A DNA stretch of 36,891 bases from Ruminococcus sp. (GTDB lineage Bacteria; Bacillota; Clostridia; Oscillospirales; Ruminococcaceae): assembly GCA_017462565.1 (NCBI GenBank), contig JAFTQW010000046.1, forward strand, positions 1 to 36,891, in the 5' to 3' direction. This document shows, piece after piece, positions 390 through 36,891 of this stretch. Made by a program: the position numbers and the translations under genes. The notes below the pieces were generated by a model that was not told the DNA's origin, ran no database searches, and saw only the letters and a program-made list of their open reading frames with translations. Positions within the stretch are counted from its first letter, which is position 1. Every line of letters begins with the position of its first letter.

Positions 390-929
390 TTACACATCAT
401 TTTCATCTACATCATAGTGCTTATCCTTATCAGAACCATACTTTACAACCCAGGACTTATCTCCAGTAACTTTTTTGATATATTCCAAAAAAGAGTATAT
501 CTCTGCATAACTTCCACCGAACATTTTCCCATCAATATAGCTTACAGAATTCATTACAAAATGAGTATGATACACAGAAGCACAACTTCCACATTTTTTG
601 GAACACGGCTTTTTATGTATACACCATATCATCTGGAACTTGTCCGAAAAATATGATGCAATAATACGGCTCATATATTCGGCTCTTTCAATATTATCTC
701 CCAATGTAGATTTTGCATCATACACCACAATAAAATGAAACGCAGGATTTCCACTGGTCTTATAAAAATATTTCTTTACCAATAAAAATTGCTCATAAGC
801 ATTATCAATATCAGTATTAAAGCTATATCTTTTATCATAATCGGTATGTACGTAAAGCACATAATTCAGGGCATTGTACATATATTGTAATCCATCATCT
901 ATATTTCTTATCACTTTAAAGATTCCCAT
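390..929 (-). CDS. Small relaxase-like mobilization nuclease
   Basis: The 179-residue protein carries the histidine pattern of MobP/VirD2-type relaxases: an early HFIVVYD strand and then YHTHFVMNSV, which matches the H-x-H-x3-N metal-binding motif III. Relaxases nick one strand at oriT to start conjugal transfer. It is very short, since most family members carry long C-terminal extensions. It has a cysteine-rich insertion, CSKKCGSCAS, just before motif III. The start overlaps the end of the upstream mobC-like gene by 19 nt, so the two are probably translated together. No candidate motif I tyrosine is assigned with certainty. It may be a minimal relaxase or one worn down by deletion. Confidence 0.6.
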   Translation of the reverse strand: MGIFKVIRNIDDGLQYMYNALNYVLYVHTDYDKRYSFNTDIDNAYEQFLLVKKYFYKTSGNPAFHFIVVYDAKSTLGDNIERAEYMSRIIASYFSDKFQMIWCIHKKPCSKKCGSCASVYHTHFVMNSVSYIDGKMFGGSYAEIYSFLEYIKKVTGDKSWVVKYGSDKDKHYDVDENDV

Positions 930-1288
930 ATCTCATAACCTCCCTCTACAAAAAGACCGATATTATTTTCAAGTTTATCATACTTTTCCTGCGGTGTGAG
1001 TGGTGTAAATAATCCTTCAAAATCATGTGATTTTTGTCTTAGTTCCTCTCTACGAATATATTCTCTTTCGTCAAGACTATCCGCAATATCTTTCACAATA
1101 TTAACCATTTCCTGCATCTTAACAGCCATATACGGTGTAATGCCCTGATTACTATGCAAGGCACAATCCAGCATATACTCGCTAAACTTCATGCCTTTTT
1201 GCTCTGCCTGTTCCATAATCTGCTGTTCCTGCTGCGGTGACATCTTAATGGACTTCGTAACTGATTTTTTCTCATTTTCACTTTTCAT
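911..1288 (-). CDS. MobC-like relaxosome accessory protein
   Basis: This 125-residue protein begins with a basic segment followed by KSIKMSPQQEQQIMEQAEQK and KFSEYML. That pattern (beta strand, helix, helix) is typical of ribbon-helix-helix plasmid mobilization proteins such as MobC. The C-terminal half is predicted helical and charged. A GGAGG site (complement of 1295-1299) lies 6 nt before the ATG. It precedes and overlaps the relaxase gene, the usual mobC-relaxase order. It probably binds oriT DNA and recruits the relaxase. Family assignment comes from pattern and context, not from a search. Confidence 0.6.
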   Translation of the reverse strand: MKSENEKKSVTKSIKMSPQQEQQIMEQAEQKGMKFSEYMLDCALHSNQGITPYMAVKMQEMVNIVKDIADSLDEREYIRREELRQKSHDFEGLFTPLTPQEKYDKLENNIGLFVEGGYEIWESLK

Positions 1289-1313
1289 AATGTACCTCCA
1301 TATGATAATTATT

Positions 1314-1348
1314 ATATATACTATTTATATCTATTATATAGTATATAT
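1314..1348. repeat. AT-rich inverted repeat upstream of mobC
   Basis: ATATATACTAT (1314-1324) is the exact reverse complement of ATAGTATATAT (1338-1348), with a 13-nt gap. It lies just upstream of the mobC ribosome site, where an operator or part of an oriT would be expected. The surrounding 100 bp are nearly all A and T, so some symmetry by chance is possible. Confidence 0.4.
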
Positions 1349-1407
1349 ACTTATATTAAATATTTTTATTTATAATTACAATACTTTATATATTTAACAC
1401 TATCTGC

Positions 1408-1441
1408 AAGACAGAGGTAATCGTAATACCTCTGTCTTTTT
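1408..1441 (+). terminator. Strong rho-independent terminator on the plus strand
   Basis: AAGACAGAGGTA (1408-1419) pairs perfectly with TACCTCTGTCTT (1427-1438) across a 7-nt loop. T residues continue on the plus strand. No T-run follows on the minus strand. There is no plus-strand gene upstream within the window, so the transcript it ends is unexplained. The rest of 1442-1630 holds no gene that I can support; it is the leader of the DUF960 gene. Confidence 0.75.
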
Positions 1442-1644
1442 GTGTTTATAAGCATTCGTATTCAAGTAACAGATATCAATTTTTCAGTTTATAGGTAATA
1501 CCTTTTATCTTTATGTTAGTATTGTAGTAAAAAAAGTAATACTGTTTTTCTTTGGTTATATATTATTGAAGTGCTACAGTAAGCTCTGCCAATAATTTTG
1601 GTAGGAGCATAGGAGCGTAACGAATCAGCAAAGGAGATGAAAAA

Positions 1645-1929
1645 ATGTTTAACAATCAACGTTATCTGACAAAAGGAGTTCAGGCAGAAATACCGCTTGA
1701 ACTCCAACTTTTTATGTGGGAATGTATCAACAGGCTTCCCGAAGAACAAGACTATTTTCAGGTATTCAAAATGGAAAGTCTGAACGGCATTCAGAAAATC
1801 ACACACTTTTCGGAGCAACCTGAATATCACAGGGAATATCTTGTCCCGACAGAAAATCCCATAACAGCAAAAGTTTACATCATAAACAGTGACACATACT
1901 CAACAATGCTTTTGGCAGAAGAATATTAA
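1645..1929 (+). CDS. DUF960 family protein
   Basis: The 94-residue protein matches the DUF960 pattern from start to end: RYLTKGVQAEIPLELQLFMW near the N-terminus, a central DYFQVF, and the C-terminal STMLLAEEY. DUF960 proteins are small, of unknown function, and commonly carried on Firmicutes conjugative and phage-like elements. An AAAGGAG site lies just upstream of the ATG. The gene is complete and is followed by a strong terminator. It is the only intact plus-strand gene of the left mobile region. Confidence 0.8.
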   Translation: MFNNQRYLTKGVQAEIPLELQLFMWECINRLPEEQDYFQVFKMESLNGIQKITHFSEQPEYHREYLVPTENPITAKVYIINSDTYSTMLLAEEY

Positions 1930-1941
1930 CTCAATGCAAAA

Positions 1942-1972
1942 CCCTCCCGATTCATTTCGGGAGGGCAATTTT
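1942..1972 (+). terminator. Terminator after the DUF960 gene
   Basis: CCCTCCCGA (1942-1950) pairs with TCGGGAGGG (1957-1965) across a 6-nt loop, and a T-rich tail follows. It lies 12 nt after the DUF960 stop codon. Confidence 0.85.
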
Positions 1973-1992
1973 TATTTATGGAGGAAATTAAA

Positions 1993-2757
1993 ATGGAAGA
2001 AAAAATCTACTGTTCCCACTTCGGAATATTCATTGACACGGACGATTAAGGCGAACTGGACGGTGAAATTTTATGCTCCGACTGCCTTGACGATTACACA
2101 ACGGTCTGCGACTGCTGCGGTGCAAGAATCTGGAACGATGATGCCGAGAGTGACGACTATACAACGCTTTGTCAGCACTGTTACGATTATCACTACACCC
2201 GTTGCGAGGAATGCGATGCACTTATTCACAACGATGATGCTTATGAGTACGATGATGAATATTTTTGTCATGAATGTTATCAGAGAATACGCAAAAACGC
2301 ACCGATTCACGAATACGGTTACAAGCCCGAACCTATTTTCTACGGTGATTCTAATCGTTATTTCGGTGTTGAACTGGAAATCGACGGAGCAGGCAAGGAC
2401 AATGATTATGCTACGGAACTCCTTGATATTGGCAATATGCATGACGAACATATCTACATCAAAACGGACGGTTCTCTTGATGATGGTATGGAGATAGTTA
2501 CTCACCCGATGTCACTTGAATACCACAAAGATTTCTGCTGGGAAGACATAATGCACCATGCCGTAAGACTCGGATACCGTTCACATCAGACAAGCACCTG
2601 CGGTCTGCACGTTCATGTCAATCGTGATTCCCTCGGTGAATATCGTGAGGAGCAGGACGAAGTTATCAGCCGTATACTTTACTTTGTGGAACACCACTGG
2701 AACGAAATACTGAAATTTTCGAGACGTTCAGAATATGCTATGAACCGCTGGTCGTAA
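1993..2757 (+). pseudogene. Element-borne amidoligase, broken by a nonsense codon and truncated
   Basis: A GGAGG site precedes an ATG at 1993, but codon 19 is TAA (2047-2049). The frame then stays open to 2757. It encodes a cysteine-rich zinc-ribbon region (CDCCGARIW, CQHCYDYHYTRCEECDALI, CHECY) and then an amidoligase-like part (YFGVELEID, DGSLDDGMEIVTHP, CGLHVHVNR). ATP-grasp-like amidoligases of this type occur on Firmicutes mobile elements. GAA to TAA would explain the stop (DTDD then GELDGE). The protein also ends early at NRWS, before the C-terminal part I would expect. The same frame after the stop reads GTL, possibly a trace of a deleted tail. Downstream initiation at ATG 2437 would lose the zinc region. 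Confidence 0.7.
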
Positions 2758-2785
2758 TACGCTTAGGGAACTCTCTCTCTGCCGA

Positions 2786-3292
2786 TTAAAAGATGCCAAC
2801 ACCCCAGAAAAACACCGAAACTTCGTTAATTCTCTTTGAAATCGGAATACGTCTGTTTGGATTTAAGCATTTTCCGACTTCAATATGTTCAATAAAGTCG
2901 GCTAACACTTCTGAGGTAAGTTCCTCGATGGCATCATATTTTTTGATTGCTGTGTACAGCATTTTCACTTTGCTGTTGACTTCATTTTTGTCATTCAGTT
3001 TGCCAATGTACTCAGCAATCATCTTATTCAGTTGTACCTTTTCATCATCGTAGGTTGATTTCAGGCTTGCAAATAACGAGCCGTCAATTTCTCCTTTGAC
3101 CTTTGCTTCAAATAAGCCCTGAATGTACTTGTCAATTTCTGTGATTCTCAGCTGAGCCTTTTCAAGCTCACTTTGCATGACTGCTTTGCTTCCGTCAGAC
3201 CGCTTCTCCAAGCGTTTCTGAACAGTATTGCGGAACTCATCGGGATTGGACTTTGCGGTTTGTAAGACCCTCTGTATCTCCTTGAAATGCAC
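2786..3292 (-). pseudogene. C-terminal remnant of a large serine recombinase
   Basis: The open frame encodes about 165 residues of a coiled-coil region (KAVMQSELEKAQLRITEIDK) followed by a conserved tail, EVLADFIEHIEVGKC. Both are typical of the C-terminal end (DUF4368-like) of large serine recombinases used by conjugative transposons. The N-terminal catalytic domain with its active serine is missing. At about 3,285-3,292 it is fused, in another frame, to a tyrosine recombinase fragment. It cannot be an active recombinase. The ATG at 3292 is incidental. Confidence 0.75.
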
Positions 3293-3899
3293 AAAGCTCG
3301 CCTATTCTGATACCGGTAGACATAGACAAAGCGATTCCAAGCGTTGAATGATTTGGATTTTCGGCAATATACTGCTGCAGCTTCTCTTGCTGTGTCTCGT
3401 CAAGCAGTTCAATCTCCGGCTTCTGCATCTTCGGCAATGTGATACCGTCCAAAGGATTTATGAAGTGATAGGTTCTGGAAGCGTATTTAAAAACAGATTT
3501 CATCATGATTATAATATCCGAGATATAGCGATTTGAAAGTCCGGATTTCTGCCTTGATTCTATAAAAGAGTAGATATCCGATTCCGTGACTGCATCTGCA
3601 TTCATATCCGAAAATGCAGGAAGCACGTGCTTTTCAGCCTTCATACGGTAATTAGCAGCGGTGGACTCTTTTACACGATGTTGAATACTCTGAAACCATT
3701 CAGAAAAGATCTGTCCAAAAGTTTTACTGCAATTACCGCTAAATTCTTGTCTGCGGATTGCTGTCATCTTATCCTGAACCTCTTCACGGCTATGCCCGAA
3801 GAAATATTGAAAACGCCTCTTGCCGTTTTGACGCTTTCCTCTTGCAATCCTACCTTCATAACGCCCATCACGTCTGTGATAAATGTTAAACAGTTTCAT
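3237..3899 (-). pseudogene. Truncated tyrosine recombinase (paralogue of the 4575-5639 gene)
   Basis: A GGAGG site precedes ATG 3899, giving MKLFNIYHRRDGRYEGRIAR. The protein matches the intact recombinase at 4575-5639 over its whole arm-binding and SAM-like core-binding domains, and into the catalytic domain as far as TGIRIGELCA, which holds the first catalytic arginine. There the match stops. The frame runs into the serine recombinase fragment and ends at 3237. The catalytic lysine, H-x-x-R and tyrosine are missing, so it cannot perform strand exchange. It might still bind its core site and act as a repressor. An earlier start at 3962 has no good ribosome site. Confidence 0.8.
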
Positions 3900-3985
3900 A
3901 GCACGACCTCCTGATTTGTTAAAAGTGTACAAAGAATTAGAGACAATTTCTATGTAATTCACTTGACGAAATTTGTTGATACAGC

Positions 3986-4014
3986 TTGACTTTTCAGGAA
4001 AAATGTGATATGCT
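3986..4014 (+). promoter_or_regulatory. Sigma-A promoter divergent from the truncated recombinase
   Basis: TTGACT (3986-3991), a 17-bp spacer and TATGCT (4009-4014) form a good sigma-A promoter reading right. A core-type inverted repeat and then a terminator follow within 110 bp. Its transcript would be a short RNA of about 100 nt. Confidence 0.6.
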
Positions 4015-4046
4015 AAAGAAAAGTCATATGTACAATTATATCACCT

Positions 4047-4073
4047 TTTCGCAAAAGGATATATTTTGCGAAA
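4047..4073. repeat. Core-type recombination site of the truncated recombinase
   Basis: TTTCGCAAAA (4047-4056) and TTTTGCGAAA (4064-4073) are perfect inverted arms around the 7-bp spacer GGATATA. The arms differ from those at 5705-5731 by one compensated base pair and the spacer length is the same. This is the expected form of a tyrosine recombinase crossover site. I found no second copy of this spacer with arms in the window. Confidence 0.6.
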
Positions 4074-4085
4074 GACTTGTCAACA

Positions 4086-4124
4086 CCGAATCGTATCTCA
4101 ATCAAGATGCAATTCGGCTTTTTT
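4086..4124 (+). terminator. Terminator ending the short divergent transcript
   Basis: CCGAAT (4086-4091) pairs with ATTCGG (4112-4117). An inner stem pairs GTATCT with AGATGC, including one G-U pair. TTTTTT follows at 4119-4124. Confidence 0.7.
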
Positions 4125-4153
4125 GTACCCAAAACGGAATTGTACCATCAAAG

Positions 4154-4183
4154 TTGACATCTGCCACAAAAATAATGTATAAT
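4154..4183 (+). promoter_or_regulatory. Sigma-A promoter reading antisense into the lipoprotein gene
   Basis: TTGACA (4154-4159), an 18-bp spacer and TATAAT (4178-4183) are both perfect hexamers. The promoter ends 3 nt before the 3' end of the minus-strand lipoprotein gene and reads into it. No plus-strand gene follows, so an antisense RNA is the simplest reading. Confidence 0.6.
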
Positions 4184-4185
4184 AT

Positions 4186-4467
4186 TTACGGATCACAGCG
4201 TTTGCAAGGCTCGTATCCCTGCAGGATGAGGTCATCACGATCACCAGCATACTCTTTTTTGTTATGCTCTGCCATTAAATCCACGCTTGGACAATCAGGA
4301 TAGTGAAATTTTCCTGTATTTAGGTTGATGATATAGTCAATGCCCACTGTTTCGTCTACGGTCGCAGGTTCAGTGTAGACAACGCTCCTATTGTCATTGG
4401 AACTATCACAGCTCACAAATAAAATCATCGAAATTACGGCAAAAATCAGAGCAGAAATTCGTTTCAT
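4186..4467 (-). CDS. Lipoprotein with C-terminal Ada-like metal-binding domain
   Basis: The start at 4467 (MKRISALIFAVISM) fits the GAGGAG site. An ATG two codons earlier would abut that site. The first 20 residues are a type II signal ending in the lipobox LFVSC. After a low-complexity Ser/Asn/Asp linker comes YIINLNTGKFHYPDCPSVDL and, at the end, GYEPCKRCDP. That C-x-n-C-x-x-C arrangement resembles the small Ada-type zinc domain often found at the ends of secreted nucleases. The protein is probably a surface lipoprotein of 93 residues with one zinc-binding module. Its job is unknown. It lies just left of the recombinase segment and would be the first gene read if that segment inverted. An antisense promoter faces it at 4154. 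Confidence 0.7.
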   Translation of the reverse strand: MKRISALIFAVISMILFVSCDSSNDNRSVVYTEPATVDETVGIDYIINLNTGKFHYPDCPSVDLMAEHNKKEYAGDRDDLILQGYEPCKRCDP

Positions 4468-4541
4468 GAACATCTCCTCTGGTGAATAGTACCAATCAAA
4501 ATCACGGATATATCTCTCCTTGCAGCGATTATCGGCAGATA

Positions 4542-4568
4542 TTTCGTAGAATTCAGGATTTAGCGAAT
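4542..4568. repeat. Left core-type recombination site (imperfect arms)
   Basis: TTTCGTAGAA (4542-4551), spacer TTCAGGA (4552-4558), then TTTAGCGAAT (4559-4568). The spacer is identical to that of the site at 5705-5731 read on the other strand. The arms match that site at 9 of 10 and 7 of 10 positions. It starts 6 nt after the recombinase stop codon and lacks a T-run, so it is not a terminator. Confidence 0.6.
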
Positions 4569-4574
4569 TTTCAC

Positions 4575-5639
4575 TCAGAAATTGACCGCCAAACGCTCCA
4601 TATACTTGATTTTCTGCTCAAATGAGGAGTGAACGTACCGATTCAGCGTCAATTCTACAGTGGAATGCCCCAATAATTCTGATAATGCCTTCACATCAAA
4701 TCCCAGTTTAACGCAAGTTGAGACAAAAATATGGCGGAGTGCATGGAAATGAACTGACGGCAATTTTACGTTTTTTAAGATTTTCTGGAAACGATACTGC
4801 ATTGATCTTGGCTCAATTGGCTTTTCCTTGCCCGAAAGGATATAGTCGCTGTCTTTGCCCTTGAACTTCTCCAGAAATGCAATCATTCCTTTTGGAATCG
4901 GAATTTTTCTGCGTGAGGATTCGCTTTTTGGTTCTGTAATAACCAGTTTTGTTTTCTTATCGCTGCCTTGAATCTGCACTCGCTGCATGGTCTTGCTGAC
5001 GGTCAAAATACGTTTTTCAAGATTGATATCCTTCCACTGCAAGGCACAAAGCTCACCGATACGAATACCTGTGGTCATAGAAAGAGCCACTCCGAGAGTG
5101 GCTTTGTTCTGATTATGACCAATATACTCCTTCAATTTCGCCTGTTCATTCTCATCAAGCAGCGTAATTTCGGGATTTTTTGCACGTGGCATTTTGATAT
5201 ATTCCATCGGATTGTAGATATGATAAGTGCGAACTGCGTACTTGAACATGGATTTCATCACGATCAGCATATCAGATATGTAGCGATTAGACAAACCGAC
5301 TTTCTGCTTGGATTCGATGAAGGCATAGATCTCCGTATCTTCAATGGACTCTGCCGATTTATCGCCAAATGCAGGCAGAATATGCTTATTTGCTTTCAGA
5401 TAGTAGTTTGCTGCTGTTGACTCCTTAACTTTGTGTTTAATGCTACTATGCCACTCACTGAAAAGCTGCGTGACAGTTAAGGGAAAATTGCTCTTTTTAC
5501 GTCGTTCCTTTGCCATTTTCTCACGGACATCTTCCTCTGTTTTGCCGAAAAAATACTGAAATCGTCTTGTTCCGTTGCTTCGTTTTCCCCGTGAAATGCG
5601 CCCTTCGAACCGTCCGTCCCGTCTTTGATAAATATTCAT
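4575..5639 (-). CDS. Tyrosine recombinase/integrase, intact
   Basis: The 354-residue protein has the full phage-integrase layout: an N-terminal arm-binding region (NIYQRRDGRFEGRISRGKR), a SAM-like core-binding domain (about 55-140) and the catalytic domain. Catalytic residues are R193 (TGIRIGEL), K238 (TEPKSESSRR), H299 and R302 (HFHALRH), H325 (LLGHS) and Y335 (LNRYVHS). A GGAGG site precedes the ATG. The gene sits between two core-type sites in opposite orientation (4542-4568 and 5705-5731). It could be the integrase of a decayed conjugative element, whose order int-next-to-att fits, or a DNA invertase acting on its own segment. Transcription probably starts at a -10 box that overlaps the divergent promoter, with its -35 inside the right-hand site, which would allow autoregulation. 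Confidence 0.9.
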   Translation of the reverse strand: MNIYQRRDGRFEGRISRGKRSNGTRRFQYFFGKTEEDVREKMAKERRKKSNFPLTVTQLFSEWHSSIKHKVKESTAANYYLKANKHILPAFGDKSAESIEDTEIYAFIESKQKVGLSNRYISDMLIVMKSMFKYAVRTYHIYNPMEYIKMPRAKNPEITLLDENEQAKLKEYIGHNQNKATLGVALSMTTGIRIGELCALQWKDINLEKRILTVSKTMQRVQIQGSDKKTKLVITEPKSESSRRKIPIPKGMIAFLEKFKGKDSDYILSGKEKPIEPRSMQYRFQKILKNVKLPSVHFHALRHIFVSTCVKLGFDVKALSELLGHSTVELTLNRYVHSSFEQKIKYMERLAVNF

Positions 5640-5660
5640 GCCGACCTCCTAAAATTTCAT

Positions 5661-5689
5661 TTGACATAATGAACAAAATATGCTATAAT
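5661..5689 (+). promoter_or_regulatory. Perfect consensus sigma-A promoter pointing out of the recombinase segment
   Basis: TTGACA (5661-5666), a 17-bp spacer and TATAAT (5684-5689) are exactly consensus. It reads right, straight into the core site at 5705, which with its T-run acts as a terminator. No plus-strand gene lies beyond in this orientation. Confidence 0.75.
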
Positions 5690-5713
5690 ATCAGCAGATT
5701 AATTTTTCGTAAA
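5685..5713 (-). promoter_or_regulatory. Likely promoter of the intact recombinase
   Basis: On the minus strand TTTACG (complement of 5708-5713), a 17-bp gap and TATTAT (complement of 5685-5690) precede the recombinase by about 45 bp. The -35 box lies inside the left arm of the core site and the -10 overlaps the divergent TATAAT. Recombinase bound to the site would block it. Confidence 0.5.
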
Positions 5714-5737
5714 ATCCTGAATTTTACGAAATTTTTT
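5705..5737. repeat. Right core-type recombination site, also a plus-strand terminator
   Basis: TTTCGTAAAA (5705-5714) and TTTTACGAAA (5722-5731) are perfect inverted arms around TCCTGAA (5715-5721). On the plus strand TTTTTT follows at 5732-5737, so the hairpin also works as an intrinsic terminator for the consensus promoter at 5661. The T-run is outside the segment bounded by the two sites. Confidence 0.65.
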
Positions 5738-5945
5738 ATGCCCTTTTGAGGATATTACTACCTATATTACGCATTTTATGAGTAACAGTCAATTACCATA
5801 GTGGACAAGAACTTCAGGCGATATTTGTGGATATTAGCTGCTGAAAAAATGGAAAAGTGCCGTCAGGAAAATCTATTTCAAGTCCAAATCAAAAGAAAAA
5901 CGGCACAGCATAACACTGCACCGCAAAAAACGTAAAATGACCGTC
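5738..5945. other. Gene-free stretch
   Basis: I see no supported gene between the right core site and the Rpn terminator. GTGCCGT (5857-5863) and ACGGCAC (5900-5906) are inverted copies 36 nt apart, of unknown meaning. Confidence 0.4.
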
Positions 5946-5980
5946 AAAAAAATCGGCTCAGTTCACAATGACTAAGCCGA
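5946..5980 (-). terminator. Terminator of the Rpn gene
   Basis: On the minus strand TCGGCTTAGT pairs with ACTGAGCCGA (one G-U pair) across an 8-nt loop, followed by seven T residues (complement of 5946-5952). It ends 15 nt after the Rpn stop codon. Confidence 0.85.
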
Positions 5981-5995
5981 CTAACTTTACAATTA

Positions 5996-6784
5996 TTATG
6001 CTACCTTGCCGTTCGCCACATTCTCAACAAGTTCAATAGAAACTTTGAGAGAATTAGCAATTTCTTCATATGTCAGTTTTCCGAGCATGAGAAGTGCTTT
6101 AATAGCATCAATTTTTTCTTCATAGACTTTTTCATTCGCACGTTCTTCAACTATTTTACACATTTCGCTCATACCTCCTTCGGTTTCCTTAAAATGGCGG
6201 AATCTTTCTATCAACTCTGAATTGTACATATCATCTGCATGAACGCACTTGAAATCATGCATCAATCTGCCGATGCTGTCATTTGGATTCTCATAAGCAC
6301 CATTCACAAATATAATATGCGCTTCATCACCTAAATACTCTCCCGTTTCTTCACATCGTCTGTCAAAATGATACAGCGGCAAATCCCTGCCCATCACATC
6401 GTTTTCAGTGATGAATATGACAAACGTCTCAGAAAGCTGATCAAACTTCTCTTTTTTCTTCAGAAGTTTGGTATCAAGCATACTGCTGTGAAACCTTGCT
6501 CTTTTAGGTGAAGCTCCTACATCTGCCCGCTGCACCTCAATATTGTACTTCTTGCCTAACTGATCTTCTGCATAGATATCCAGTGTAATAGAACGACCCG
6601 CTAAACTTCTGTACTCACTTTGTGTTTCACTTCGAAGTATTTTCAAATCATTTCTTTGCAGAATGACGCTGAGGATGAAGTGGACGCCGTCCGGATTATC
6701 ATTGAAATAAAGCCTCAAAAAATCATCATCGATCAAGCGCAGCTGCTCAGCCGTTCTTCGGTTCTTTTCTTGTTCTGTCGCCAT
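5996..6784 (-). CDS. Rpn family PD-(D/E)XK nuclease (recombination-promoting nuclease/putative transposase)
   Basis: The 262-residue protein has the family core: an N-terminal LRLIDDDFLRLYFND, then LDIYAEDQLGKKYNIEVQRA, which holds the D...ExQ nuclease residues, then KRARFHSSMLDT and a strand FVIFITENDVMG. The C-terminal helical part, ANEKVYEEKIDAIKALLMLG followed by TYEEIANSL, is typical of Rpn proteins. They are DNA endonucleases linked to recombination and possibly phage defence. The start at 6784 (MATEQEK) has an AAAGGGTG site; the longer frame begins with a weak codon. The gene is intact, solitary, and has its own terminator. Confidence 0.85.
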   Translation of the reverse strand: MATEQEKNRRTAEQLRLIDDDFLRLYFNDNPDGVHFILSVILQRNDLKILRSETQSEYRSLAGRSITLDIYAEDQLGKKYNIEVQRADVGASPKRARFHSSMLDTKLLKKKEKFDQLSETFVIFITENDVMGRDLPLYHFDRRCEETGEYLGDEAHIIFVNGAYENPNDSIGRLMHDFKCVHADDMYNSELIERFRHFKETEGGMSEMCKIVEERANEKVYEEKIDAIKALLMLGKLTYEEIANSLKVSIELVENVANGKVA

Positions 6785-7159: not shown

Positions 7160-7633
7160 ATGAAGAAAACAAAATGGACAGAGCTATTAATATTTATCAT
7201 CGGAACGGAGCTTGTCGGTGCACTTTCAAGTTTGTTATCAGGAAATTTCTCGTCCTTCTATGACGAACTTGTCAAGCCGCCACTTGCACCACTGGGAATT
7301 CTCTTTTCGATTGTGTGGGCAATCCTTTATGCTTTAATGGGAATATCAGCATATATGATCTATGTTTCAGATGCCGAAACCGGTAAAAAGGCCAAAGCTC
7401 TTACGCTGTATGCAGTGCAGCTGTTTGTAAATTTCATGTGGAGTATTGTGTTCTTCCGATTTGAACAAATAGGCGCAGCGGCCGCTGTTCTTATTCTGCT
7501 TATCATTCTTATAACTATGATGGTTGTGATATTCAAGAAAATTCGACCGCTGGCAGGACACCTAAACATACCATATTTACTCTGGGTGATATTCGCAGCA
7601 TATCTGAATATTGGATTTTTACTTCTGAACTAA
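7160..7633 (+). CDS. tspO: TspO/MBR family membrane protein
   Basis: The 157-residue protein has five hydrophobic segments and the TspO pattern: an N-terminal helix with IIGTELVGALSS, then YDELVKPPLAPLGILFSIVW, a tryptophan-rich third helix (VNFMWSIVFF) and a final helix ending in YLNIGFLLLN. TspO proteins bind tetrapyrroles and are linked to porphyrin handling and stress responses. A GGCGG site precedes the ATG. It is the only intact plus-strand gene between Rpn and the right-hand IS, and it stands between decayed genes. It has a strong terminator directly after the stop. Confidence 0.9.
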   Translation: MKKTKWTELLIFIIGTELVGALSSLLSGNFSSFYDELVKPPLAPLGILFSIVWAILYALMGISAYMIYVSDAETGKKAKALTLYAVQLFVNFMWSIVFFRFEQIGAAAAVLILLIILITMMVVIFKKIRPLAGHLNIPYLLWVIFAAYLNIGFLLLN

Positions 7634-10407: not shown

Positions 10408-10453
10408 GTTACATTACCTCCAATTATTTCACAGGGGTTCCTGTTCTGTTATT

Positions 10454-10522
10454 ATTATATACCTATTTTGCCTATTTGTCTAATATGTATTATCTATAAC
10501 AAGCTATAGATTCAATCTATAG
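10454..10522 (-). promoter_or_regulatory. paaK promoter with LysR-type palindrome
   Basis: On the minus strand: perfect 19-bp palindrome CTATAGATTGAATCTATAG (10504-10522), 21 bp, -35 TAGACA (10477-10482), 17 bp, -10 TATAAT (10454-10459). The centre is about 67 bp before transcription start, the usual LysR recognition position. A TTATAG half-site lies between palindrome and -35. CCTATTTT and CCTATTTG (plus strand, from 10462) overlap the spacer and may bind the Rrf2 regulator. Confidence 0.7.
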
Positions 10523-13316: not shown

Positions 13317-13349
13317 GTGATTCACCATTCCTTTCCTTCTGATAATTCT

Positions 13350-13418
13350 ATTATATACCTATTTTACATAGTTGTCCAATATGTATTATCTATAAAAAGC
13401 GATAGAGTGAATCTATAA
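13350..13418 (-). promoter_or_regulatory. ABC importer promoter with LysR-type palindrome
   Basis: On the minus strand: imperfect palindrome TTATAGATTCACTCTATCG (13400-13418), 21 bp, -35 TGGACA (13373-13378), 17 bp, -10 TATAAT (13350-13355). The block from the TTATAG half-site to the -35 is almost identical to that of the paaK promoter. CCTATTTT (plus strand) overlaps the core promoter. Confidence 0.7.
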
Positions 13419-35777: not shown

Positions 35778-36758
35778 TCATTTCAAGTGCCGTTTTACCT
35801 CATCCGACTCATGAGTCATTCCAAGTCGCTCAAACATTTCTAAAGCGGATTGAGCATGCTTACTTGCTTTTCTTTTATGTTTACGCATTGCTTCGGATTC
35901 AGCAAGCACTTGATAACATCTTCCTATTGTACTTTTCCTATTAACGGATAACGCTAGCTTTAAGCCTTCACTACAAAGCTCTTCTGCTTTCGCATAATCA
36001 TTCAGTCCAAGGTATGAAAAACCTAAATGACTTAAAGAAACAGCCTGTCCCTCGTAATCGGATATTTCTTTTGCCAAGTCAAGAGACTTTTCAAGCCAAC
36101 CAATCGCTTTTTGATATTGAGAATTTCTGTTAAAAGTAATGCCGAGTTATTGATAAATCGCCACAATTCCTGCCTTATACCCCGAATCGCTATTCACTCG
36201 CCAGTCAGCAAATAATTTCACATCAGCCTTATCTGCCAATTCTAAGGTTTGTAAAACCGACATAAATTTTTCTACGCTTGTTTCGCTATCGTCGGTCATG
36301 TGAATTAGAGCTTCAAGTCTTAATACTAAGGCGTTACATGTAGAATCGTTGGTGTTTGACAAGAGACTTTTACAATTTTCTACCGCTTTACTAGCGTTAG
36401 TTATGTCGCCTTGCCAGAACTTAACAATTCCAACATAGTATTGATGAATAATTGCCTGTTTGTAATTGCTTGATTGAACTGCCATATCACATGCTAATTC
36501 TGACAGCGCGATTCTCTTAGTCCAATAACCACGGCTCCACAAAAACGCGCTTAAATGAGAAATAAGCTGAATTACAGATTCACTGTAATTCGGGATTTTT
36601 TTCGACCAGTGAACAATTTTAATTATATTTGTTTGTTCGTTTTCAAGTTTATCATAAGCGGATTTTGTTCCTTTCTCACCATACTCTCTACAAAAATCAA
36701 TGTAATATTTCAGTAAAGGCTGATAGAACTGTTCGTCATCAATATTGGAATCTTGGTG
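35778..36758 (-). pseudogene. C-terminal part of a STAND/TPR protein, stop codon inside, cut by an IS
   Basis: One frame from 36758 to 35778 encodes YYIDFCREYGEKGTKSAY, DKLENEQTNIIKIVHW, FLWSRGYWTKRI and then TPR helices such as EGQAVSLSHLGFSYLGLNDY and KAEELCSEGLKLA. This is the winged-helix plus TPR end of AP-ATPase/STAND regulators. A TAA (complement of 36147-36149) interrupts it after GIVAIYQ, followed at once in frame by LGITFNRNSQYQKAI. The NTPase domain would lie to the right but the frame stops at an IS end. It ends 24 nt before the cupin start. Confidence 0.7.
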
Positions 36759-36772
36759 CTATACTAAAAAAG

Positions 36773-36801
36773 TAGACAGCAAAAAAGAAAAATGATATAA
36801 T
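36773..36801 (+). promoter_or_regulatory. IS transposase promoter
   Basis: TAGACA (36773-36778), 17 bp, TATAAT (36796-36801), about 45 bp before the transposase ATG. Confidence 0.65.
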
Positions 36802-36845
36802 AGAAGTAAACAGGCAAAGAGAAGATCATCAAGGAGGAAAAACCA

Positions 36846-36891
36846 ATGACAAACAAACAACCGCAGTACGATGAAAACTTTAAAAAGAACA
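36846..36891 (+). CDS. Transposase OrfA, IS3 family, partial
   Basis: An AAGGAGG site precedes ATG 36846. The 15 visible residues, MTNKQPQYDENFKKN, match the usual start of IS3-type OrfA proteins (basic, aromatic, then E/D-F-K). The gene runs off the right edge. Confidence 0.6.
   Translation, partial: MTNKQPQYDENFKKN

Follow-up and report, generated by a model that had tools for sequence, protein, structure and literature searches.

A putative self-inverting promoter cassette that carries its own tyrosine recombinase in Ruminococcus sp. and relatives among the Clostridia

Does an integrase-like gene enclosed by two short inverted sites belong to a mobile element, or is it part of a switch that turns over its own DNA? 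The question is raised by positions 4542 to 5737 of a 36,891-nucleotide stretch from Ruminococcus sp. (assembly GCA_017462565.1, contig JAFTQW010000046.1; the whole stretch is called the window here), where a tyrosine recombinase gene and an outward-facing promoter lie together in one small segment. We conclude that the locus is very probably a self-contained phase-variation cassette, in which the recombinase inverts its own segment together with the outward promoter.

Layout of the cassette

The features of the cassette and of its predicted target are the following.

4186..4473, minus strand: predicted target, a gene for a small lipoprotein with a VSCD lipobox, an AGAGGAG ribosome-binding site and a start at 4473 or 4467
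4542..4568: left core site, on the downstream side of the recombinase gene (outer arm TTTCGTAGAA and imperfect inner arm TTTAGCGAAT around the spacer TTCAGGA at 4552-4558)
4575..5639, minus strand: tyrosine recombinase of 354 amino acids (Pfam Phage_integrase PF00589, E 2.9e-24)
5661..5689, plus strand: outward promoter TTGACA-17-TATAAT (-35 at 5661-5666, -10 at 5684-5689)
5705..5731: right core site, on the upstream side of the recombinase gene, a perfect 10-7-10 palindrome (spacer at 5715-5721, in opposite orientation)
5732..5737, plus strand: T6 run outside the right site, which as assembled makes up a weak terminator-like structure together with the hairpin of that site

A repeat search of 4000-6500 returned the core sites as an inverted pair of 27 nt (4541-4567 and 5706-5732, 89% complementary), which is the longest inverted pair listed for this interval and the single one with a TTCAGGA spacer; this search did not cover the rest of the genome. 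The spacer reads TTCAGGA at 4552-4558, and its reverse complement stands at 5715-5721. A preliminary description of this locus had reported two sites with 10-bp arms and the same spacer in reversed directions, tightly bracketing a single recombinase gene. The repeat search and the spacer coordinates agree with it on both counts, the one open reading frame (ORF) alone within the pair being that at 4575-5639 on the minus strand with the Pfam match. The segment between the core sites measures about 1.16 kb and holds the recombinase gene and the outward promoter, and the T6 run directly abuts the right site on its outer side.

The recombinase and its family

The window recombinase was found to be of the tyrosine and not the serine type, as judged from Pfam, NCBIfam and the fold. 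Six residues (R193, K238, H299, R302, H325 and Y335) are unchanged across 19 aligned members, and we take them to be the catalytic R-K-H-R-H/W-Y positions. The structure comparison, run with a model of predicted local distance difference test (pLDDT) score 88, gave the Tn1549 integrases as the nearest solved structures, with the N-terminal 50 residues barely covered. In the model these residues follow the order strand-strand-strand-helix, which resembles that of arm-binding domains. Against the FimB/FimE profile (NCBIfam NF007370) the protein scored 20.6 bits, below the curated cut-off of 221.

A quick FastTree tree of 150 rows, which is unrooted and has long branches, placed the 109 recombinases scored as flanked by their own site pair all within a single group (131 rows, support 88), together with a further 17 unflanked and 5 unscored rows. 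The 19 rows outside this group are all unflanked, with a best inverted match of 16-19 of 27. Hosts of the family include Ruminococcus flavefaciens, Blautia, Butyricicoccus, Agathobaculum, Eisenbergiella and metagenome-assembled genomes of Lachnospiraceae and Oscillospiraceae. Isolates that carry a cassette are R. flavefaciens FD-1, Ruminococcus sp. YE71, Butyricicoccus pullicaecorum DSM 23266, Blautia glucerasea MSK.21.93 and Eisenbergiella porci WCA-389-WT-23B, among others. The window cassette is a member of a group of self-flanked recombinases in gut and rumen Clostridia. A 100% identical cassette with a matching upstream flank was also observed in records named Butyricicoccus, Blautia and Agathobaculum (L140, L141 and L142), an identity that reflects either recent transfer or contamination.

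Site pairs and spacers in the relatives

Site pairs were scored as the best ungapped inverted 27-mer between the 350 bp upstream of each recombinase and 460 bp around the gene end, a scan that reaches about 400 bp from the gene; farther direct repeats ending a larger element were not searched for. For the cross-paired controls, the upstream flank of one locus was set against the downstream flank of another. Inverted scores of at least 22 were found in 46 of the 80 scored same-genus genes (from 84 matches, fragments and a few duplicates included) compared with 7 of 471 controls, and in 56 of the 77 scored genome_contigs loci (from 80 fetched, among the matches listed) compared with 5 of 454 controls; these counts include the high scores of L047/L112, L130 and L143, which are not core-site-like by eye. 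The window pair scores 24 of 27, a level reached by none of the 471 same-genus controls and by one of the 454 genome_contigs controls. Direct matches of at least 22 occurred in 6 of the 80 same-genus genes and 12 of the 77 genome_contigs loci (again among the matches listed), and they are partly expected because the core sites are palindromes.

In tyrosine recombinases, the crossover region under strand exchange should be identical within a locus and free between loci. With the centre placed by the palindromy of the upstream site only, which kept 82 of 101 loci and removed 19 whose palindromes were weak, both copies of the 7-bp spacer were exactly equal in 75 of the 82 loci. Between loci, the identity per base is 0.35 for the spacers and 0.57 for the outer arms. 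Spacers that are equal within a locus and free between loci match what is expected of a crossover region. A 7-bp spacer gave the best fit in 93 of 101 loci, with a placement that rewarded spacer identity and is hence biased; under the same biased placement, and with pairs that are not independent, spacer differences between related loci were present in both copies in 172 of 180 cases. No spacer is shared in any of 44 within-genome pairs of complete cassettes, where few would be expected by chance with seven free bases.

The inner ends of many cassettes carry GTCA-type repeats such as CCGTCAGA...GGTCA (for example L048 and L091), which are candidate arm-type recombinase sites or accessory-factor sites. 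The motif GCCGTCA occurs inside the cassette ends in 32 of 115 cases downstream and 26 of 115 upstream. As an arm-type site it was kept as a lead, but the window cassette leaves just 10 bp between the stop codon and the left site.

Promoters, terminators and predicted state

The perfect TTGACA-17-TATAAT promoter that had been placed inside the segment, pointing right, was recovered from the sequence. This feature is general in the family, as an outward sigma-70-like promoter matched by at most 10% of shuffles was found in 100 of 104 distinct cassettes (about 10 expected), compared with 3 of 19 integrases outside the group. Inward promoters at p up to 0.1 were found in 25 of the 104 cassettes, again with about 10 expected. 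The candidate for the recombinase of the window is a weak one.

5685..5713, minus strand: weak candidate recombinase promoter TTTACG-17-TATTAT, with its -35 in the inner arm of the site (shuffle p 0.08)

Terminator-like hairpins were observed immediately beyond the promoter-side site in 56 of 100 cassettes and beyond the opposite site in 13 of 100, compared with 40 of 1000 shuffles. Eight of the 56 promoter-side hairpins overlap the site, starting in its first bases, and a combined site and terminator does therefore exist among the relatives. In the window, the hairpin of the right site has -8.7 kcal/mol (z -4.0) and an 11-bp stem with two G-C pairs, and its score falls under the terminator threshold. 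The CwpV paper cites a rule of at least four G-C pairs (PMC2784873), and because the stem has only two, the terminator role of the window site is doubtful. The right site with its T6 run is at best a weak predicted terminator. The T6 run and the hairpin that the preliminary description relied on are thus present, but the function it gave them is in doubt. Its further statement that it knew of no described switch with a combined site and terminator is weakened, as the same source proposes an intrinsic terminator where the left repeat meets the segment of Clostridioides difficile cwpV in the OFF state (PMC2784873).

By the side on which the terminator lies, the assembled state was scored OFF in 54, ON in 8 and undecided in 42 of the 104 cassettes, with the window among the undecided; three of the eight ON calls (L104, L152 and L161) rest on the site palindrome itself.

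Orientation of related cassettes

A flank comparison of 118 cassettes gave 152 pairs with any match. Both flanks were in the same orientation in 33 pairs, several of which are one genome held twice, and both were opposite in 4, among which L034/L037 and L034/L102 are one comparison as L037 and L102 are the same locus. One flank only was the same in 94 pairs and opposite in 18, and the last 3 were mixed.

In four locus pairs the site-to-site segment was found to be collinear with the flanks inverted. The pair L077/L134 (Ruminococcus sp. YE71) shares a segment of 90.1% identity over 1376 bp, with inverted flanks that both reach the sites, one of 92% identity across 983 bp and the other of 72% across 116 bp; it was tallied as one-opposite above, as only 48 bp passed on one side in the flank comparison. 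The state of L134 is repeated by L183 when compared with L077, on one flank only. The segments of L098/L100 are 80% identical, and the inverted flank matches reach the sites on both sides. In L034/L037 (segment 78%), the inverted flank reaches one of the sites but begins 126-173 bp away from the other, and the same terminator adjoins the upstream site of one locus and the downstream site of its partner. In L052/L095 (segment 76%), both flanks are 79-88% identical and inverted, beginning 32-509 bp from the sites. Opposite orientations between common flanks show by comparison that inversion has taken place in the family. The earlier proposal of a self-inverting switch, which suggested that related genomes be compared for both orientations, is therefore supported through the relatives, whereas the window locus itself was found in its own orientation only.

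The copies of the window locus are those in L057 (genome G086) and L177, both complete, and a partial match in G117 that continues unbroken across the right site into the right flank; all have the orientation of the window. In L057 and L177 the recombinase is 93% identical and the left site is similarly imperfect. No inverted copy of the window locus was found in a DNA search of 125 same-genus genomes or among the matches listed for its relatives. An exact search of viral_contigs with the right site gave one match (L257), which lies on the same contig as L177 and in the same orientation.

A possible inversion junction at the right end of the window (36754-36891), where 138 bp are identical and inverted to the start of contig C28, was rejected and is taken to mark where a multicopy insertion element ends. 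A different sequence of 138 bp likewise forms an inverted repeat at the two ends of contig C64.

Predicted target genes

The preliminary description had placed the inverted promoter about 110 bp upstream of the lipoprotein start at 4467. This distance was reproduced, as a predicted transcription start at about 5696 maps after inversion to 4577, which is 110 bp before the ATG at 4467. The window lipoprotein has no Pfam family match. On the other side, the next rightward ORF of at least 80 amino acids beyond the segment begins at 7160.

For the family, 77 ORFs were predicted as targets by the terminator side or, where this was undecided, as the sole outward ORF or the downstream one; 74 of them, cut at 600 amino acids, were scanned (L037, L152 and L161 omitted). 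Response_reg and LytTR domains were found in 15 each, BspA-type leucine-rich repeats in 4, Wzz in 2, SPFH-type domains in 2 and CpsB/CapC in 1. A simple heuristic assigned a signal-peptide-like or membrane start to 30 of the 74 and a lipobox to 6. The family targets are likely to include LytTR regulators, secreted proteins and exopolysaccharide genes.

Other cassettes of the genome and surroundings of the window

The layout is repeated elsewhere in the same genome. Contig C39 and contigs C23/C24 hold a cassette with a common 32-bp site region that is inverted relative to the gene; C64 and C28 hold another, with the recombinase split between the contigs and 21-bp site copies inverted; and a further cassette lies on C57 at 44 kb. 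Since these repeat the layout with sites of their own, they were counted in favour of the cassette reading. The sites of the first of them are at 482-513 of L022 (C39), 793-824 of L023 (C23) and 794-825 of L024 (C24), and the contigs break inside the recombinase. C23 and C24 carry near-identical N-terminal halves (94%) that face partly different DNA.

A second cassette, cassette B, adjoins the first in the window.

3237..3962, minus strand: cassette B, truncated paralogous recombinase (61%), N-terminal part of about 209 amino acids
3986..4014, plus strand: promoter-like outward sequence of cassette B, TTGACT-17-TATGCT (by eye)
4047..4073: upstream core site of cassette B, a perfect palindrome (TTTCGCAAAA-GGATATA-TTTTGCGAAA)
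4086..4124, plus strand: terminator-like hairpin and T6 run outside the cassette B site (-13.9 kcal/mol, z -4.6)

The partner site of cassette B was not found in the window, nor was the remainder of the cassette found elsewhere in the genome. The tandem of both cassettes with a complete B is present in G086 (L057) and L177, and the homology of the window to them ends at 3282. Positions 390-3292 hold a relaxase, a NikA-like protein and the end of a DUF4368 protein, relics of a mobilizable element; the last we take to be a serine-recombinase end. Elsewhere in the window, a 69-bp direct repeat (10453-10521 and 13349-13417, 88% identical) flanks an ABC transporter operon. No RNA family of Rfam reached its gathering score in the window.

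Proposed mechanism and alternative explanations

In the mechanism that we propose, the recombinase would bind both inverted core sites and cut at the 7-bp spacers, and the 1.16-kb segment carrying its gene and the outward promoter would be inverted. In the assembled orientation, the promoter would point rightward, away from the lipoprotein gene and into the weak hairpin with its T6 run, and the switch would be OFF. After inversion the promoter would point leftward, and transcription would cross the opposite site and enter the lipoprotein gene after a leader of 110 nt; the switch would be ON. We infer from the sequence that the window recombinase itself carries out the inversion, that this copy still flips and that the lipoprotein gene is its target; the state would be heritable and reversible in the population. 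Such redirection of a predicted promoter is supported by the outward promoters (100 of 104) and by the hairpins outside the promoter-side site (56 of 100, compared with 13 of 100 at the other).

Several observations weigh against the cassette reading. No convincing family-wide recombinase promoter was found in the 104 cassettes, of which only 25 have an inward one. Pairs in the same orientation exceed those in opposite orientation (33 both-same compared with 4 both-opposite), and the excess of OFF states among the assemblies may mean that flipping is rare or that the scoring is biased. The group of flanked recombinases includes the 17 rows in which there is no site pair. At the window locus, the left site has an imperfect inner arm, and L057, L177 and the partial G117 match all share one orientation.

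The points that concern the window locus would also suit a former switch that is now locked OFF by decay of the left inner arm, an explanation that applies to the window copy only and is compatible with the reading of the family. Besides the imperfect left site and the single orientation of the copies found, the truncation of the adjoining cassette B speaks for it. We nevertheless consider a locked switch unlikely, as the reading frame is intact with its catalytic residues, the spacers are identical and the promoter is perfect, and L057 and L177 have a left site that is imperfect in a similar way.

An ordinary mobile-element integrase, lying beside its own att site with a degenerate secondary site and moving a larger element with no switch, is very improbable here. 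The spacers are inverted and match exactly at dozens of loci, an att site would not be expected to come with a conserved outward promoter and terminator, and the 19 integrases outside the group have no site pair (16-19 of 27). Related loci flip their orientation with both flanks kept, which refutes this explanation as a general reading.

The smallest probability is given to a multi-site shuffler, whose recombinase would also use other genomic sites and cause larger inversions or exchanges between cassettes, for although several cassettes of one genome have common arm sequences and the near-identical N-terminal halves on C23 and C24 have the same site sequence as C39, tyrosine recombinases normally need spacer identity and an identical spacer occurs in 0 of 44 within-genome pairs of complete cassettes.

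Comparison with known switches and implications

The self-inverting cassette may be set beside several known systems. In the Salmonella flagellar switch, the invertible H-segment contains an outward promoter and the gene for the serine recombinase Hin, and its inversion links the promoter to the neighbouring gene or unlinks it. The window likewise has both its recombinase gene and its outward promoter inside the segment, and by analogy it would work like Hin with a tyrosine recombinase. It differs from Hin in this enzyme and its 7-bp crossover spacers, and the family differs further in that a terminator-like hairpin often stands outside the promoter-side site and in the diversity of its predicted targets (regulators, secreted proteins and exopolysaccharide genes). 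In fimS, served by FimB and FimE, and in the Tsr systems of Bacteroides, a promoter flanked by short inverted repeats is turned over by a tyrosine recombinase, and the recombinase genes lie outside the segment. The window shares with them the tyrosine recombinase, the promoter and the inverted sites, whereas its recombinase gene would flip with the segment. Integrases of the Tn1549 and Tn916 type lie at the end of a large element. The inverted sites of the window, in contrast, are about 1.2 kb apart and enclose the recombinase only, with no transfer genes; a distant further site was not searched for.

The cwpV and flagellar switches of C. difficile, served by RecV, are likewise found in the Clostridia and use a tyrosine recombinase, and cwpV is the precedent for a site-linked terminator. 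In cwpV, however, the promoter lies outside the segment and RecV is encoded elsewhere, whereas both are inside the window cassette. One publication names Hin as an example of a recombinase within its segment (PMC5903667). The literature searched, which did not extend to subscription papers such as the original inverton survey, gave no account of cassettes in which a tyrosine recombinase inverts its own gene together with an outward promoter. In the hCom2 community, inverton group 139 consists of 33 invertons, 32 of them from the class Clostridia, and the link to its tyrosine recombinase/integrase group was drawn from a distance of at most 5 kb; the text on the group does not place the recombinase inside the segment or describe a promoter-terminator layout (PMC11892184). 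Group 139 may include the present cassette family.

A broader proposal, to which we give slightly less than an even chance, is that these cassettes are autonomous 'plug-in' phase-variation modules across the Clostridia, with their own recombinase, promoter and sites. They would have been brought upstream of new genes for surface proteins, exopolysaccharide or LytTR regulators, with a private 7-bp spacer renewed in both copies that insulates many switches in one genome. If this is true, many integrase-looking genes in Ruminococcus and other gut and rumen Clostridia would be phase-variation switches, and their sites, likely ON or OFF state and target gene could be read from the sequence. Heterogeneity in surface proteins and LytTR regulators would then be directly testable in bacteria that are hard to grow, and the paired sites, with their freely varying and distinct spacers, would be natural candidates for orthogonal tyrosine-recombinase inverters.
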